A DNA stretch of 64,000 bases from an uncultured Acidimicrobiales bacterium. Its GTDB lineage: Bacteria; Actinomycetota; Acidimicrobiia; Acidimicrobiales; SZUA-35. The position numbers were made by a program, and so were the translations under genes. Shown piece after piece: positions 4,099-9,983 of the stretch (within the stretch, counting starts at the first letter, position 1; each line of letters starts with the position of its first letter). The stretch is taken from contig CALKZY010000030.1 of assembly GCA_938002965.1 (NCBI GenBank), positions 62,001-126,000 on the forward strand. Direction: 5' to 3'. The notes below the pieces were generated by a model, which made no database searches, had not been told where the DNA came from, and worked only from the letters and a program-made list of their open reading frames with translations.

Positions 4099-5055
4099 TT
4101 AGGGTCGAATCAGGACTTTGCCCCTAGCCCTATTGGTTCCCAGGTACTTGTAGGCATCCCGCACGTCGGCTAGGGCAAACTCCCGGTCGATGTGGGTTGT
4201 CAACACGCCTTGCTCGGCGAGAGTGGCTAGTCGGCTCAATCGCTCACTGGTCTCAGCGGCGATGAAGATGACGAGCTTGTGGGAAGACAAGGCGAACCGG
4301 GCGGCCATGGCCAGCTGTTCCGGGATCGGGCCGAGCACCCGTCCACCTTTGTTCGGCCCGACCATGACGACCCGTGACTTTGGCGCCAAGCCGCGCATCA
4401 GCTCCGAGGCCGTCCGGCTGCCTGCACACTCGACAATGACGTCATGGGTTTGATCAGTGAAATCAGACTTCGTGTAGTCAATGATCTCGTCGGCGCCAAG
4501 GCCTGCCACGAACTCGACGTTGCGTCCGCTGCACACGCCGGTGACTCTGGCGGCTCCCATGACCTTGGCCAATTGGATCGCATAGTGACCCACTCCGCCT
4601 GATGCGCCGTTGATAACCACTGACCGACCTTCGATTTCGCCTTTCTCCATTGCTTGCAAGGCGGTGATGCCGGCGATGGGAAGTCCGGCCGCGGTGTTGT
4701 CGTCGACGGAGTCGGGGATCTTCACCACCCGGTCTGATTTGGCTAGGGAGTAATCGGCGAAGGCACCGGTCATGCTGCCGAACACCCGATCGCCTGCCTT
4801 GAGGTTGGCGACCCCGGTTCCCACAGCGTCCACCACTCCGGCGGCGTCGCGCCCGACTATGAAGTGTTTGGGTTTGCGGATGCCCTCGGTGAGTCGCATG
4901 AATGTTGGCGTGCCGGTGGCCAGGTGCCAGTCGGCCGGGTTGATGGACGCCACGTTGACTGCCACCCTTACTTGGCCAGCTCCGGGTTCGGGGATCGGAA
5001 CGTCTTGGAAGGTGATGTGGTCAAGCCCGTAGTGGTCTTGGGTTGCCGCTTTCAT
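4099..5055 (-). CDS. Zinc-free MDR oxidoreductase, quinone reductase-like
   Basis: 318 residues from the ATG at 5053-5055, which has GAGGAG 8 nt upstream; an upstream in-frame start at 5106 lies inside the operator and is unlikely. Medium-chain reductase: GroES-like N-terminus (PGAGQVRVAVNVASINPADW, residues 24-43), then a Rossmann domain with INGASGGVGHYAIQLAK binding NAD(P)H. The Cys/His zinc ligands of alcohol dehydrogenases are absent, as in quinone oxidoreductases. It is likely to reduce quinones or enones. It is divergent from the TetR gene and shares the paired operator at 5087-5124, so it is probably repressed by that regulator together with the AhpD-like selenoprotein. Confidence 0.9.
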   Translation of the reverse strand: MKAATQDHYGLDHITFQDVPIPEPGAGQVRVAVNVASINPADWHLATGTPTFMRLTEGIRKPKHFIVGRDAAGVVDAVGTGVANLKAGDRVFGSMTGAFADYSLAKSDRVVKIPDSVDDNTAAGLPIAGITALQAMEKGEIEGRSVVINGASGGVGHYAIQLAKVMGAARVTGVCSGRNVEFVAGLGADEIIDYTKSDFTDQTHDVIVECAGSRTASELMRGLAPKSRVVMVGPNKGGRVLGPIPEQLAMAARFALSSHKLVIFIAAETSERLSRLATLAEQGVLTTHIDREFALADVRDAYKYLGTNRARGKVLIRP

Positions 5056-5086
5056 CGTGGTGCTCCTCAGAGTGGGCGAGTTTTGA

Positions 5087-5124
5087 CGTACACTGTACGC
5101 ACACACTTAACATACACTGTACGT
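5087..5124. promoter_or_regulatory. Paired palindromic operator between MDR and TetR genes
   Basis: Two copies of TACACTGTA (5089-5097 and 5113-5121), centres 24 bp apart. The first sits in the 13-bp palindrome CGTACACTGTACG at 5087-5099; the second is flanked by a matching CGTA half. The spacing puts both sites nearly on the same helix face. The position, between a reductase and a divergent TetR gene, is typical of a TetR autoregulatory operator. Binding itself is inferred. Confidence 0.8.
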
Positions 5125-5149
5125 ACTTTCGCTGTCTACACTTGACTGC

Positions 5150-5842
5150 GTGACTGTGGACTCAGCGACTGTGAACTCAGCAACTATGGACTCAGCGACT
5201 ATGGACCCAGCACTAACTACCCAACGAACGCCACTGACCCAAGAGCGAGTAGTTGCCGGCGCGGTCGACTACGCAGACCAGCACGGCTTGGGAGCACTCA
5301 GCATGCGCAAGCTGGCGACCTCCTTGGGCTTCGAAGTCATGTCGCTGTACAACCATGTCAAGAACAAACCCGATCTCATCCGTCGCATGACCGACCTAGT
5401 CGCCAACGAGATTCCGGTGCCATCTCAACCCGATGACCCCTTAGCGGCGTTGCGACAGCACGCTATTGAGATGCGGCACGCATTGGAGCGCCACTCATGG
5501 GCCGCCATGTCGTGGATCACAACCCTTCCGGGTCCGGCTCGTTGGGATCTTATGGAATGGCAGCTACGGACCGTGGCCGCCATCAACGGCCTCACCGACG
5601 AGCAAGCCCACCACGGCTACCACGCAATCACCAACCACGTCGTCGGCTACGTCCTTCAAAACGAGGTCATGCCCTTTGACGACGATGACCTGGAAGATGT
5701 TGTCCAAATGATCAAACCCGACCTCGATGAACAAGCGCACGCCCACGTCCTGAACCACATCGGCCAGCACCAACGGGGCGAACACGGCGAGTCATTTGAC
5801 TATGTGCTGGATTTGATCCTGGGAGGACTAACCGAACTATGA
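5150..5842 (+). CDS. TetR/AcrR family transcriptional regulator
   Basis: 230 residues from GTG 5150. The helix-turn-helix lies at about residues 45-70 (LSMRKLATSLGF then SLYNHVKNKPDL); the long C-terminal helical domain would bind an inducer. The first 20 codons are four 15-bp repeats encoding SAT-(V/M)-(D/N), giving alternative starts at GTG 5156, GTG 5171, ATG 5186 and ATG 5201. No ribosome site precedes any of them. A TACACT hexamer at 5137-5142 would place transcription at about the first GTG, so a leaderless message is possible. The stop overlaps the ATG of the AhpD-like gene (ATGA). It probably represses itself, that gene and the divergent MDR gene via 5087-5124. Confidence 0.9.
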   Translation: MTVDSATVNSATMDSATMDPALTTQRTPLTQERVVAGAVDYADQHGLGALSMRKLATSLGFEVMSLYNHVKNKPDLIRRMTDLVANEIPVPSQPDDPLAALRQHAIEMRHALERHSWAAMSWITTLPGPARWDLMEWQLRTVAAINGLTDEQAHHGYHAITNHVVGYVLQNEVMPFDDDDLEDVVQMIKPDLDEQAHAHVLNHIGQHQRGEHGESFDYVLDLILGGLTEL

Positions 5843-6381
5843 GCTGGATTCAGCAAGTACCGGACGACCAGTGGTGCGACGATGAACGCCTGGCCGAACT
5901 CCACCGACAAGTAGTGGACCCAGAATCAGGCAAGGTCGACCACATCATGGCCGTGCACTCGTTGAACCCCACCGGGCTGGCTGCCCACAACGCGCTATAC
6001 ATCTCGGCCATGACGGGCACGGCCACGCTGCGCAAAGTGGAGCGCGAGCTGGTGGCCTACGTGGTCTCAGTGGAGAACAGCTGTCATTATTGAATCGTTC
6101 ATCATCGGCGCGGTCTGCGCCGACTACTCAAAGACGATGACCTGCTGGCCGAGCTCGACACTGACTGGCGGTCCGCCCCGCTGTCCGAAATGCGTCGGGC
6201 CATGTTGGACTACGCCATCAAGCTGACCCATACCCCCGGCGATATGGTGCGAGCCGATGTAGAGAAGCTCCGCACCGTTGGCTACAGCGACCGCGACATT
6301 CTGGACATCGCCGAAGTCGTCGGCTACTACGCTTACGTCAACCGTATCGCCGACGGTCTTGGTGTCGAACTGGAAGCCTGA
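5839..6381 (+). CDS. AhpD-like peroxidase-related selenoprotein (CxxU), TGA at 6091-6093 read as Sec
   Basis: Read through one TGA, this is a continuous 180-residue protein of the carboxymuconolactone decarboxylase/AhpD fold (peroxidase-related enzyme type, usual length about 180). The N-terminal half ends VSVENSCHY, then TGA, then IVHHRRGLRRLL. Family members have Cys-His-Tyr-Cys here, so TGA replaces the reactive second Cys of the CxxC. The remainder (MLDYAIKLTHTPGDM, GYSDRDILDIAEVVGYYAYVNRIADGLGVELE) is a well-preserved family C-terminus in the same frame, with no decay. A SECIS-like hairpin follows at 6105-6123. Predicted role: thiol/selenol peroxidase or disulfide reductase in the cytoplasm. 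ATGA overlap with the TetR gene implies co-translation. The alternative is a nonsense mutation or a sequencing error in a Cys codon. Confidence 0.85.
6105..6123 (+). promoter_or_regulatory. Bacterial SECIS-like hairpin for selenocysteine insertion
   Basis: Seven-pair stem (TCGGCGC with GCGCCGA) closing a five-base loop GGTCT. The loop begins 18 nt after the TGA at 6091-6093. Classical E. coli fdhF SECIS has the same GGUCU loop and the same 18-nt spacing, from my memory of that sequence. In bacteria this element lies inside the coding region and is bound by SelB. It is within the AhpD-like reading frame. Confidence 0.8.
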
Positions 6382-6388
6382 CCGATCA

Positions 6389-7960
6389 TCACCCGTCCTG
6401 GGAGTCGGCGTTCGTCGTTGTCGTTGTCGTTGTCGTTGTAGTCGTAGTCGTTGACAAGAAGAGCTCGGGCCTCAGCCGTCCCAGAAGCTCAGGGTCGAGG
6501 ATCAGCCGATCATCGATGAAAAGCGGGTACTTGAACAGCTGTGGCGGAATGGTCGGTTTGAGCGGGGGCACCGTCTTGACAATCGAATCGAGAATGATTG
6601 GCGGCAGAAGCACAACCTTTGGCGGTTCGGTTGGGCAGGCACCGAACGGAACGTCGAAACTGGCGTCGAGGTCGGCGCATACCGAGGCGAAGGCTGAGAC
6701 CATGTCGGTTTCCTCAACCCAGGAGTGGAGATGCACCTCGCCTGTGGCCGGGTCGGTTGCAAACCCGGCTGATCCAACCGGGCGGTTCGAACCCAACTCC
6801 GTGACGGTCGTGGCCGAAAGGGCCGTTCCGTCGGCCATTGTGCTGTTCAACGGAGCGACCACGGCCAGGTTCTGTTGCCCGACTCCGGCGGTCAAAGCCT
6901 GCGTCAGGCCGTAGCGGTTGTCGTCGGCCAGCGAAAGGCTTGGACCGTCATCGCGGATCTGAAGGCCCCAACATGCCGTTGGGTCAGTTACCAGACTCAA
7001 TCTGTCGGCGGCGAAGATGCAGAACTGCTCAACGTCGGCTTCGGCCAGCGGGATAACGGTGACCCCGTCTGGGTCCAAGTTGAATGGACCGAGCTCGTAG
7101 AGCAGCGGGAGCTCACCGGTGAGCTGAATCCGGGGAGGCAAACCGAACGAGCTGGCCGCCGAAGCCTGCACACCGGAGGCATCGTAGGCGGCAAGTTGGA
7201 TGTCGGCAGCGTCACCATAGCCTCCGATGGCCAGCGCCGGTTCGCCGTCAACGGCTACCGCTTCCATCATCAACCACTGCTCAGGGTTGTAGTCGTAGTC
7301 GACGGTGATGCTGCCCCCGCCCCGAGATCTTCCCTCAACTCGATACGTGCCCAGCGGGTCGACCAGGGAGAGTGAGTGATCGAACCGACCTAGCTCGCTG
7401 TACTCCTCGTGGATCAACGCTCCAGCCGGGTTGAACAGCTCGAAATGCCAATAGTCAGCGACACCCTCGGCAAGGCACAAGAAAAGGTAGGTTCCACCCA
7501 GCTGCTCAAGGTAGTCCGAGTCCTGCTGTGTCCGTGAACAGTTGATCACCGGGACGCCACCGCCAGTACCGGCTCGCTGGTCGGGAGCCAGCCCGGTGTC
7601 TACCGAGGCTTCGCGGATGACGCTGAGCGCTTGCTCCTCATCCACCGCCGGCATCGAGGCTTGGTCGTCGCCGCCTTCGGACGTATCATCGCCGGGTCCG
7701 CCCGACGTCGAATCATTGCCTGCATCGTCAGATCCGTCCGAATCGCCGCCGTGCGAGCCGTCGGATGAGCCGGCGCCATCATCACGCTGACTAGTGTTCG
7801 CACCGTCGGCTTGATCGCCGGTCTGACCCCCGGCGGCGACAGCGTCGTCACCCCCTCCGAAGAAGCCGCATGCTCCAAGGACCACTGCGAGTGCTGCACA
7901 CCCGGTAAGCAGCCAGAGATGGTTGACGACTATGCGCTTCGAATGGCTAGAGGAGGTCAC
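6389..7960 (-). CDS. Large secreted lipoprotein with acidic linker and poly-Thr tail
   Basis: 523 residues from GTG 7960, chosen because AAGGAGA lies 7 nt upstream and the start overlaps the previous gene by 14 bp. Lipobox LGAC after a hydrophobic stretch (LLTGCAALAVVLGAC) predicts a membrane-attached lipoprotein. A Ser/Gly/Asp linker of about 75 residues follows, then a beta-rich domain with Cys pairs (VINCS, YLFLCLAEG, EQFCIF, TACWG). The C-terminus ends in a run of about 13 Thr codons (6413-6451) before NADSQDG. I recognise no enzyme family. It is the last gene of the operon with the transglutaminase-like protein and LCAT-like hydrolase. It is convergent with the selenoprotein with a 7-bp gap. 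Confidence 0.8.
   Translation of the reverse strand: MTSSSHSKRIVVNHLWLLTGCAALAVVLGACGFFGGGDDAVAAGGQTGDQADGANTSQRDDGAGSSDGSHGGDSDGSDDAGNDSTSGGPGDDTSEGGDDQASMPAVDEEQALSVIREASVDTGLAPDQRAGTGGGVPVINCSRTQQDSDYLEQLGGTYLFLCLAEGVADYWHFELFNPAGALIHEEYSELGRFDHSLSLVDPLGTYRVEGRSRGGGSITVDYDYNPEQWLMMEAVAVDGEPALAIGGYGDAADIQLAAYDASGVQASAASSFGLPPRIQLTGELPLLYELGPFNLDPDGVTVIPLAEADVEQFCIFAADRLSLVTDPTACWGLQIRDDGPSLSLADDNRYGLTQALTAGVGQQNLAVVAPLNSTMADGTALSATTVTELGSNRPVGSAGFATDPATGEVHLHSWVEETDMVSAFASVCADLDASFDVPFGACPTEPPKVVLLPPIILDSIVKTVPPLKPTIPPQLFKYPLFIDDRLILDPELLGRLRPELFLSTTTTTTTTTTTTTNADSQDG
6413..6451. repeat. Thr-codon simple repeat in lipoprotein C-terminus
   Basis: Thirteen consecutive ACx codons on the minus strand, largely alternating ACG/ACA, so the DNA is a near-perfect 6-bp repeat (CGTTGT on the plus strand). 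Such tracts can change length by slippage in steps that keep the frame only in multiples of three. It sits at the extreme C-terminus of the lipoprotein. Confidence 0.8.
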
Positions 7961-9983
7961 GGCAGGTCTCCTTGTTTGCTTGGGGATCAAAGTCAGGAAA
8001 GTCGGATAGAAGGTCGCTTCGAATCTCGTCGTGAACGAAGCCTTGCGAAAGTAGAGGTGATAGGCATTGAGCCAACAGTGCGTCGGCTTCGGCCCGGGCG
8101 GGATCAGCGAGGGTGTAGTCACGGTCGGCCAGCATCAATGCCCGAAGCGTCAGCGCCCGCGACGCAATGTGAGCTACGCGTTGCTGTTCGTCGAAGTCAC
8201 TGCGTAGTCGGTAGGTCTCAACTACATCCGACAACTGACCCAGGGCGGCCTGTCCATTGGTTTCTCCCACTCGCCAACGACACCAGCTGATCCAAGCCTG
8301 GGCGAGATCGGCCTTGATAGTGATTTCGGCCGGGTCTGTGGCCGACCGGCCAGGGGATCGTTCCAGACCGGCTTCTCTAGCGGCTGCAACTTGATTCTCC
8401 GCTTCGGCTAACTCCGCCGGGTCGTAGGAATCGGGGAGACAACCTGAATGCAGGAGGAGGAGTTGGGCGTATCCGATTCGGGCTCGAGCCGCGATTTGCG
8501 GATCGACGTCGTCGCCCAGACGTACGGCTTCGGTGAACGCCGCGGCACCCAACTCAAAATTGCGGTCTCGGGGTTCGTCGGCATTGGCAGGTAGTGTGCC
8601 GTCCAACATGACATGGGCCCCACCGACCAGCAGTCGAGCCAGCGCGGTCAACTGGTCGGCCTTGCCAGATCTTTCGTTGCTGTCAGCAATGTCGTCGAAC
8701 AGTGTTCGGGCCTCAAGCAGGTCGTCGGCGGAAGTGGCGTCGTAGAGAATGGCGAGACCGGTCAGCAAGTCGATCCAACGGTTGACTTCGGGTTGCAGAT
8801 CAGCGGCTATGGCCTGGACCGAACCGTTGGTTCCGGCGCTGTCTCGGCGAATGGCGACCGGGCCGACGATGCCACCAAGATCAGCCCGACTGCTGGGCTG
8901 AAACCAGATGTTGACGTCGACGAACGTGGTGAAGCCCTCGTCGACCAGGCCGTATACGGCGACGTCGATGTTACGTTTGGCCAGCTCCGGTCCCAGGTCG
9001 TCATCAAGAGCAGGCCCGTCGCCGACGTCGACATTCAGCTCACCGGGACCCCAAACGCCCCATCCCGGTCGTCGATCGGTTCGGAGTTGCTCGTTGGCAT
9101 CGAGGCCCTGTCGTAGCCGCAACGTGAGATCCGATGCCACTGCTCCGGCCACAGCGTTGTCTCCCTTGCCGTCGTAGGCGAAGGGGTAGACGGTCAGGTT
9201 GGCGCCATCACTTTCAGCCATGGCCGGAGGATCTGGTTGCAGCATTAGCCACCCTGCTCCGGCGGTCAGAGCAATAGCGGCGGCAACAGTGGCCCCGACC
9301 TTGGGGATGGAGACCCCGCGGCAAGGGCGGGGCTCGACTCGGCCGTCTTGTTGAAGCTGTCGGGGGTCGAAGAAGAAGTCGAGCGGCCTGGCCTCGATGT
9401 TGGCCAACGCTCGCTCTCGAGCAGTTTCGAAATCGAAGTCGTAGTTTCGGCCGTTGGCCATTCCCGTGCACTCCACCGGTACGACGGTCTGGTTGTCGAT
9501 TAGCGAGCGCAAAGTGTCAATGTCGCGTGACGGTTCAGGCAATGGGGGAGCAAAGTTGGTATCGACGACAGCGGCCAAGGCGTGGCCTTCCAACACGATG
9601 ATCAGTGGCCGTAAGCCCTCGTTCAAGCAGGCCCCGGCATACAGCAGAGCCAGGTCCAGGCAGGTGGCCCGCCGACGTGTCCAAACTTGATGCGGGGTTC
9701 GAATACGTTGGACGGCGTTAGTGTCGGGCACGTAGCCTTCGAGGTCGTAGTCGACCTCTTGGGCCGCGATGGCCTGGTACAACAACTCGGCCACTGTGAG
9801 CCGCTGATGATCGTCGATCAAATCCCTAACGGTGGTTTCACCTTCAGGCTCGACAGACGGCACAACCTCGGCCACACACTCGGGATTGACGAACTCAGCC
9901 AGCGATGCCTCTTGGACCTTACGCCAGTGCCACGGCCGGTGATAGAAGTCGGTCAATAGGCCCATAGCAGTCTGTGCGCTCAA
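7947..9983 (-). CDS. Transglutaminase-like membrane protein with extracellular helical-repeat region
   Basis: 678 residues. The N-terminal about 220 contain a papain-like transglutaminase core: RRATCLDLALLYAGACL (candidate nucleophile Cys), followed about 25 residues later by LEGHALAAV (candidate His). An acidic residue for the triad is plausible in the next strand (VVDTN). A transmembrane helix, VGATVAAAIALTAGAGWLML, follows at about 226-245. Beyond it is an alpha/beta region, then TPR-like helices with ELGAAAFTEAVRLGDD and ARARIGYAQLLLLHSG. So a cytoplasmic protease-like or crosslinking domain is tethered to an external scaffold. It overlaps the upstream hydrolase by 4 bp and the downstream lipoprotein by 14 bp: one operon. 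Function unknown; the transglutaminase call rests on the C and H motifs. Confidence 0.7.
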   Translation of the reverse strand: MSAQTAMGLLTDFYHRPWHWRKVQEASLAEFVNPECVAEVVPSVEPEGETTVRDLIDDHQRLTVAELLYQAIAAQEVDYDLEGYVPDTNAVQRIRTPHQVWTRRRATCLDLALLYAGACLNEGLRPLIIVLEGHALAAVVDTNFAPPLPEPSRDIDTLRSLIDNQTVVPVECTGMANGRNYDFDFETARERALANIEARPLDFFFDPRQLQQDGRVEPRPCRGVSIPKVGATVAAAIALTAGAGWLMLQPDPPAMAESDGANLTVYPFAYDGKGDNAVAGAVASDLTLRLRQGLDANEQLRTDRRPGWGVWGPGELNVDVGDGPALDDDLGPELAKRNIDVAVYGLVDEGFTTFVDVNIWFQPSSRADLGGIVGPVAIRRDSAGTNGSVQAIAADLQPEVNRWIDLLTGLAILYDATSADDLLEARTLFDDIADSNERSGKADQLTALARLLVGGAHVMLDGTLPANADEPRDRNFELGAAAFTEAVRLGDDVDPQIAARARIGYAQLLLLHSGCLPDSYDPAELAEAENQVAAAREAGLERSPGRSATDPAEITIKADLAQAWISWCRWRVGETNGQAALGQLSDVVETYRLRSDFDEQQRVAHIASRALTLRALMLADRDYTLADPARAEADALLAQCLSPLLSQGFVHDEIRSDLLSDFPDFDPQANKETCRDLL

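Follow-up and report, generated by a model that had tools for sequence, protein, structure and literature searches.

The window analysed here, a stretch of 64,000 nucleotides from an uncultured Acidimicrobiales bacterium, almost certainly encodes a selenoprotein of the AhpD-like (peroxidase-related, TIGR01926) family. Its gene lies at positions 5839-6381 of the forward strand, and an in-frame TGA at 6091-6093 (forward strand) would specify selenocysteine (Sec85) in place of the second Cys of the family's CxxC motif, giving the active-site sequence CHYU. The comparative evidence for decoding of this internal UGA as selenocysteine is strong, and we hold that decoding to be very probable. Neither chance nor sequencing error can explain the CHYU gene with its in-frame TGA as observed.

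With TGA translated as U, the frame yields a product of 180 residues that contains ENSCHYUIVHHRRGL and terminates at a second TGA (6379-6381). In a profile search, this read-through product matched TIGR01926 with 131 bits against a cut-off of 81.8 over residues 25-176, that is, on both sides of the internal TGA, and PF02627 (Pfam CMD) with 38 bits. Relative to the closest homologue (85% identity), differences at the first, second and third codon positions number 8, 2 and 32 before the TGA and 11, 10 and 43 after it. This third-position excess on either side indicates that the downstream half is under protein-level selection and that both halves are translated. The preliminary description had proposed that the same frame continues to an intact C-terminus, and both the TIGR01926 match and the third-position bias past the TGA bear this out. 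Mechanically, the open reading frame does end at the TGA, and a genuine stop there would produce an 84-residue protein ending in CHY, with the downstream part forming a separate gene. We consider this highly unlikely, since the product and its conservation pass in frame through the codon, and since His89, Asn168 and Arg169, all located past the TGA, are invariant in the alignment of homologues, as is the loop of the hairpin described below.

The assignment of the TGA to the reactive second Cys of CxxC, also made in the preliminary description, agrees with the alignments: column 85 is invariant in this respect, the codon aligning with Cys in Cys-type members and with TGA in every close homologue, and an exchange between Cys and Sec at this position is seen among the homologues. 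Strong matches carrying one TGA occur in 27 of 148 related genomes (host included). Scanning public genomes yielded another 66 loci, some of them from the same genomes; most belong to Acidimicrobiia, and a few carry the labels Gemmatimonadota, KSB1, Chloroflexota, Acidobacteriota or Planctomycetota. Codon 85 is TGA in all homologues found with at least 46% identity, and in one partial match of 45.5% from a different group as well. The nearest Cys homologue (L110) is 41% identical and has TGC; codons TGC or TGT fill the Sec position in L110 and in the other distant homologues, L048-L050 and L113-L115. A pseudogene or a sequencing or assembly error, with TGA standing for a lost TGC or TGT codon, is suggested by the single base that separates these codons and by the draft state of the source genome, yet 26 further genomes among the relatives have the same TGA, as do dozens of other public contigs from several phyla, with identities as low as 46%, and the part downstream evolves as coding sequence; this independent conservation refutes a pseudogene as well as an error, and we regard both as excluded, with negligible probability.

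In a tree of the homologues, the Sec sequences form one large clade with one Cys sequence inside it. L111 and L112 make up another, small Sec group that stands beside Cys forms. The two genes of that small group carry their TGA in CILU and CVFU motifs, with different sequence downstream, and possibly represent a separate origin of Sec. A tandem paralogue found beside the Sec gene in L033 (near 1110 on the reverse strand; G142:C289:5143-5580) has SGYW in place of CHYU and has therefore lost both redox residues.

The selA, selB, tRNA-Sec and selD genes, which the preliminary description had named as those to look for, are all found in the same genome. SelA scored 393 bits in a profile search (cut-off 268), and selB, located directly 3' of selA, encodes a protein of 606 residues with EF-Tu GTPase, SelB beta-barrel and SelB winged-helix domains. 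The tRNA-Sec (anticodon TCA) scored 66.3 bits against a gathering threshold of 47. SelD (365 bits) has an in-frame TGA of its own (GAGUACKLSP; L020:1531), and so does the formate dehydrogenase alpha chain FdhA (CNRTUHAPS; L117:1759, G000:C2:82712-84604). The host assembly is a draft of 57 contigs, 91% complete with 6% contamination, and its Sec genes lie on contigs other than that of the window. Contamination is nonetheless an unlikely origin for them, because selA matches were obtained in all 12 genomes of the genus, host included, with that in G003 falling below the family cut-off. Among the related genomes, selA matches are found in 27 of the 27 that carry the TGA gene, as compared to 98 of 148 overall (hypergeometric probability 3.5e-6, uncorrected for relatedness). 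The tRNA-Sec gene is situated at a contig end (L018:138-2601; start of G000:C57), close to an apparent tyrosine integrase gene, followed by genes reading as rep-like and FtsK/TraSA-like; the tRNA-Sec gene may be the attachment site of a mobile element beside it.

Decoding of the TGA as Trp, Cys or Gly instead, through a code change or a suppressor tRNA, has counterparts, as comparable recodings of TGA exist in other lineages. Here it is extremely improbable, given that genes of the window normally end at TGA, including the AhpD-like gene itself and the upstream tetR (5840-5842), that the ahpD-like, selD and fdhA genes all have their recoded TGA at a Cys/Sec position, and that the host genome holds a complete Sec machinery.

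A SECIS-type hairpin located just past the UGA, absent from the preliminary description, provides evidence for selenocysteine that is independent of the points raised there. It spans positions 6106-6122 of the forward strand, and was recognised from its predicted fold and from covariation, with a core stem of 6 bp (CGGCGC/GCGCCG) and a GGUCU pentaloop at 6112-6116 that begins 18 nt after the UGA. We claim only these 6 bp of stem because the outermost U-A pair (6105/6123) is poorly conserved and shows no covariation. Taken as a single sequence, the hairpin has a predicted energy of -13.2 kcal/mol and a z-score against shuffles of only -1.76. The pentaloop, in turn, does not vary among the 62 distinct close sequences, whereas GGT accounts for only 121 of the 791 Gly codons in other parts of these AhpD-like genes. 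In one stem pair, two synonymous third codon positions face each other; they are paired in all 62 sequences through four types (G-C, G-U, C-G and A-U), and 0 of 20000 shuffles were as good, a count that is not corrected for relatedness of the sequences. A subset of 21 sequences agrees, with 97.6% paired as compared to 18-56% in slid controls. Homologues farther away have a different stem sequence (GGAG.../CUCC). The bacterial SECIS model places a G in one of the first two positions of the loop, 16-37 nt from the UGA (PMC13188914), and our conserved, covarying hairpin with its GGUCU loop at 18 nt conforms to it. Rfam returned no SECIS family match in a search of the whole window and of the hairpin region at a relaxed threshold, and the sub-threshold matches were rejected as chance.

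The host fdhA has a hairpin, CGUCGUC-GGUCU-GGCGAC, with the same loop and the same 18-nt spacing as that of the AhpD-like gene. Loop and distance also equal those of the SECIS of E. coli fdhF, which differs in stem sequence and coding context; the E. coli element that we compared was found to be identical in fdhF of E. coli records. The hairpin that follows the TGA of the host selD is unlike the GGUCU class, with a perfect 10-bp stem (GCAAGCUCAG/CUGAGCUUGC) and a CCCUU loop.

The AlphaFold model of the AhpD-like protein is all-helical (pLDDT 96.8), and its fold matches in the PDB are the solved peroxidase-related proteins 6k40, 2oyo, 2pfx, 3c1l and 2prr. These Cys-type proteins, to which it is 26-34% identical, resemble it in fold, in length and in the relay residues of the aligned sequences, and differ in having their second Cys where it has Sec. 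All residues of the TIGR01926 relay (Glu-x11-Cys-x-Tyr/His-Cys-x3-His) are present as Glu70, Cys82, Tyr84, Sec85 and His89, with the same spacing as in the AhpD-like PA0269 (Glu36, Cys48, Tyr50, Cys51, His55) and in Mycobacterium tuberculosis AhpD (Glu118, Cys130, His132, Cys133, His137) (PMC3141380). Based on family and active-site geometry, a peroxidase-type function is somewhat probable, and the protein is most likely a thiol-dependent (hydro)peroxide reductase or adaptor; as for the reductant, substrate and inducer of the system, these we can only infer. We propose that SelB carrying Sec-tRNA-Sec would bind the GGUCU-loop hairpin just past the UGA, so that selenocysteine would be inserted as residue 85 of the all-helical protein. 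Sec85, standing where CxxC has its second, peroxidatic Cys, would then attack the peroxide; the thiol of Cys82 would presumably resolve, and Glu70, Tyr84 and His89 would form the proton relay.

It is possible, if doubtful, that the Sec protein is no peroxidase and acts instead as a reductive dehalogenase-like enzyme or a disulfide adaptor, matched to the divergent dehydrogenase and the TetR regulator described below. AhpD-fold proteins do include the debrominase Bmp8 (PDB matches 6ohi/6ohj), AhpD of M. tuberculosis serves AhpC as an adaptor (PMC3141380), and no recognisable ahpC adjoins the gene among the window ORFs examined. However, the closest solved relatives are peroxidase-related proteins, and a gene reading as katG is located just upstream in three relatives (L075, L076 and L082), both of which argue against this reading.

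The AhpD-like gene is the second gene of a cassette, following a TetR-family repressor gene (5150-5842, forward strand; PF02909 at 43.5 bits with a cut-off of 21, and NF010319) whose product falls just below the cut-off for TetR_N. The tetR stop overlaps the start of the AhpD-like gene as ATGA, and a GGGAGGA ribosome-binding-like site precedes that start inside tetR. On the other side of tetR, a divergent gene of the reverse strand (4099-5055; PF13602 at 84.6 bits, PF08240 at 55 bits) codes for a zinc-type dehydrogenase or quinone-oxidoreductase-like protein of the MDR superfamily, with its likely start ATG at 5055 in an ORF that reaches 5106; at 136 bits, it remains below the cut-off of TIGR02824 (quinone_pig3). 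Between the two genes, two palindromic repeats 24 bp apart, ACGTACACTGTACG and CATACACTGTACGTAC (5083-5126), are candidate operators to which TetR presumably binds, and both sites recur, at another spacing, in each of the two relatives with this cassette. According to the proposed mechanism, TetR would leave the paired operators and the AhpD-like gene would probably be induced together with the divergent dehydrogenase. A more specific and tentative idea is that TetR responds to one particular reactive small molecule by de-repressing the Sec AhpD-like reductase and the quinone-oxidoreductase-like enzyme, which would detoxify it jointly, the Sec form being specialised for its substrate and no general peroxide scavenger.

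The TetR-controlled cassette put forward in the preliminary description is thus real as a linkage in this genome, and does not hold as a general feature. Linkage to tetR is found only in the host, in G007/L051 (apparently the same sequence) and in G010, and TetR control is therefore a local feature of three genomes in the genus. The neighbours differ in other lineages, one example being the katG-like gene already mentioned, which is named from sequence. No gene neighbour conserved across the clade was found, the commonest cluster of flanking ORFs comprising 8 loci and mixing unrelated positions.

As the preliminary description had recognised, Cys-x-x-Sec AhpD-like proteins are known, and both family and CxxU motif are found in earlier catalogues. 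AhpD-like CxxU selenoproteins (COG2128) were described in the Sargasso Sea selenoproteome of 2005 (PMC1088965), were reported again in the GOS survey, and a 2026 catalogue lists an AhpD-like TIGR01926 CxxU protein (entry MCB9421940.1; PMC13188914). Compared by family and motif, our protein resembles that catalogued type in its NCBIfam family, its CxxU motif and the location of Sec at the second Cys. It also shares an AhpD-related CxxU domain with NF041238 (AhpD_rel_CFYUT (seleno)protein), a different family in which membership was rejected, as the score of 37.5 bits is far below the cut-off of 175. The kind of protein is already catalogued, then, and the gene adds no selenoprotein family; it comes with a well-resolved SECIS and a TetR cassette at the genus level. 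The order-wide Sec clade, the invariant GGUCU hairpin and the TetR cassette are not described in PMC1088965 or PMC13188914, and our search of titles and abstracts in the open literature found no paper on selenocysteine use in the Acidimicrobi- class. For an order of mostly uncultured actinobacteria, the Acidimicrobiales with their kin, the findings settle the frame in which genes of this family are to be read, genes that annotation may break in two at the UGA. They also define a well-conserved SECIS, with GGUCU loop and 18-nt spacing, that two unrelated genes of a single genome have in common, and the cassette may be an example of a selenoprotein under regulation.

Two minor observations concern the genes flanking the selenoprotein gene. 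The 5' end of tetR (window 5150-5210) contains a run of near repeats, MTVDSATVNSATMDSATMDPA, which is seemingly absent from the relatives L051 and L023, and the convergent gene on the reverse strand (window 6389-8122) ends in a long poly-threonine tract, visible as GTC/GTT/GTA repeats of the forward strand near 6413-6450.
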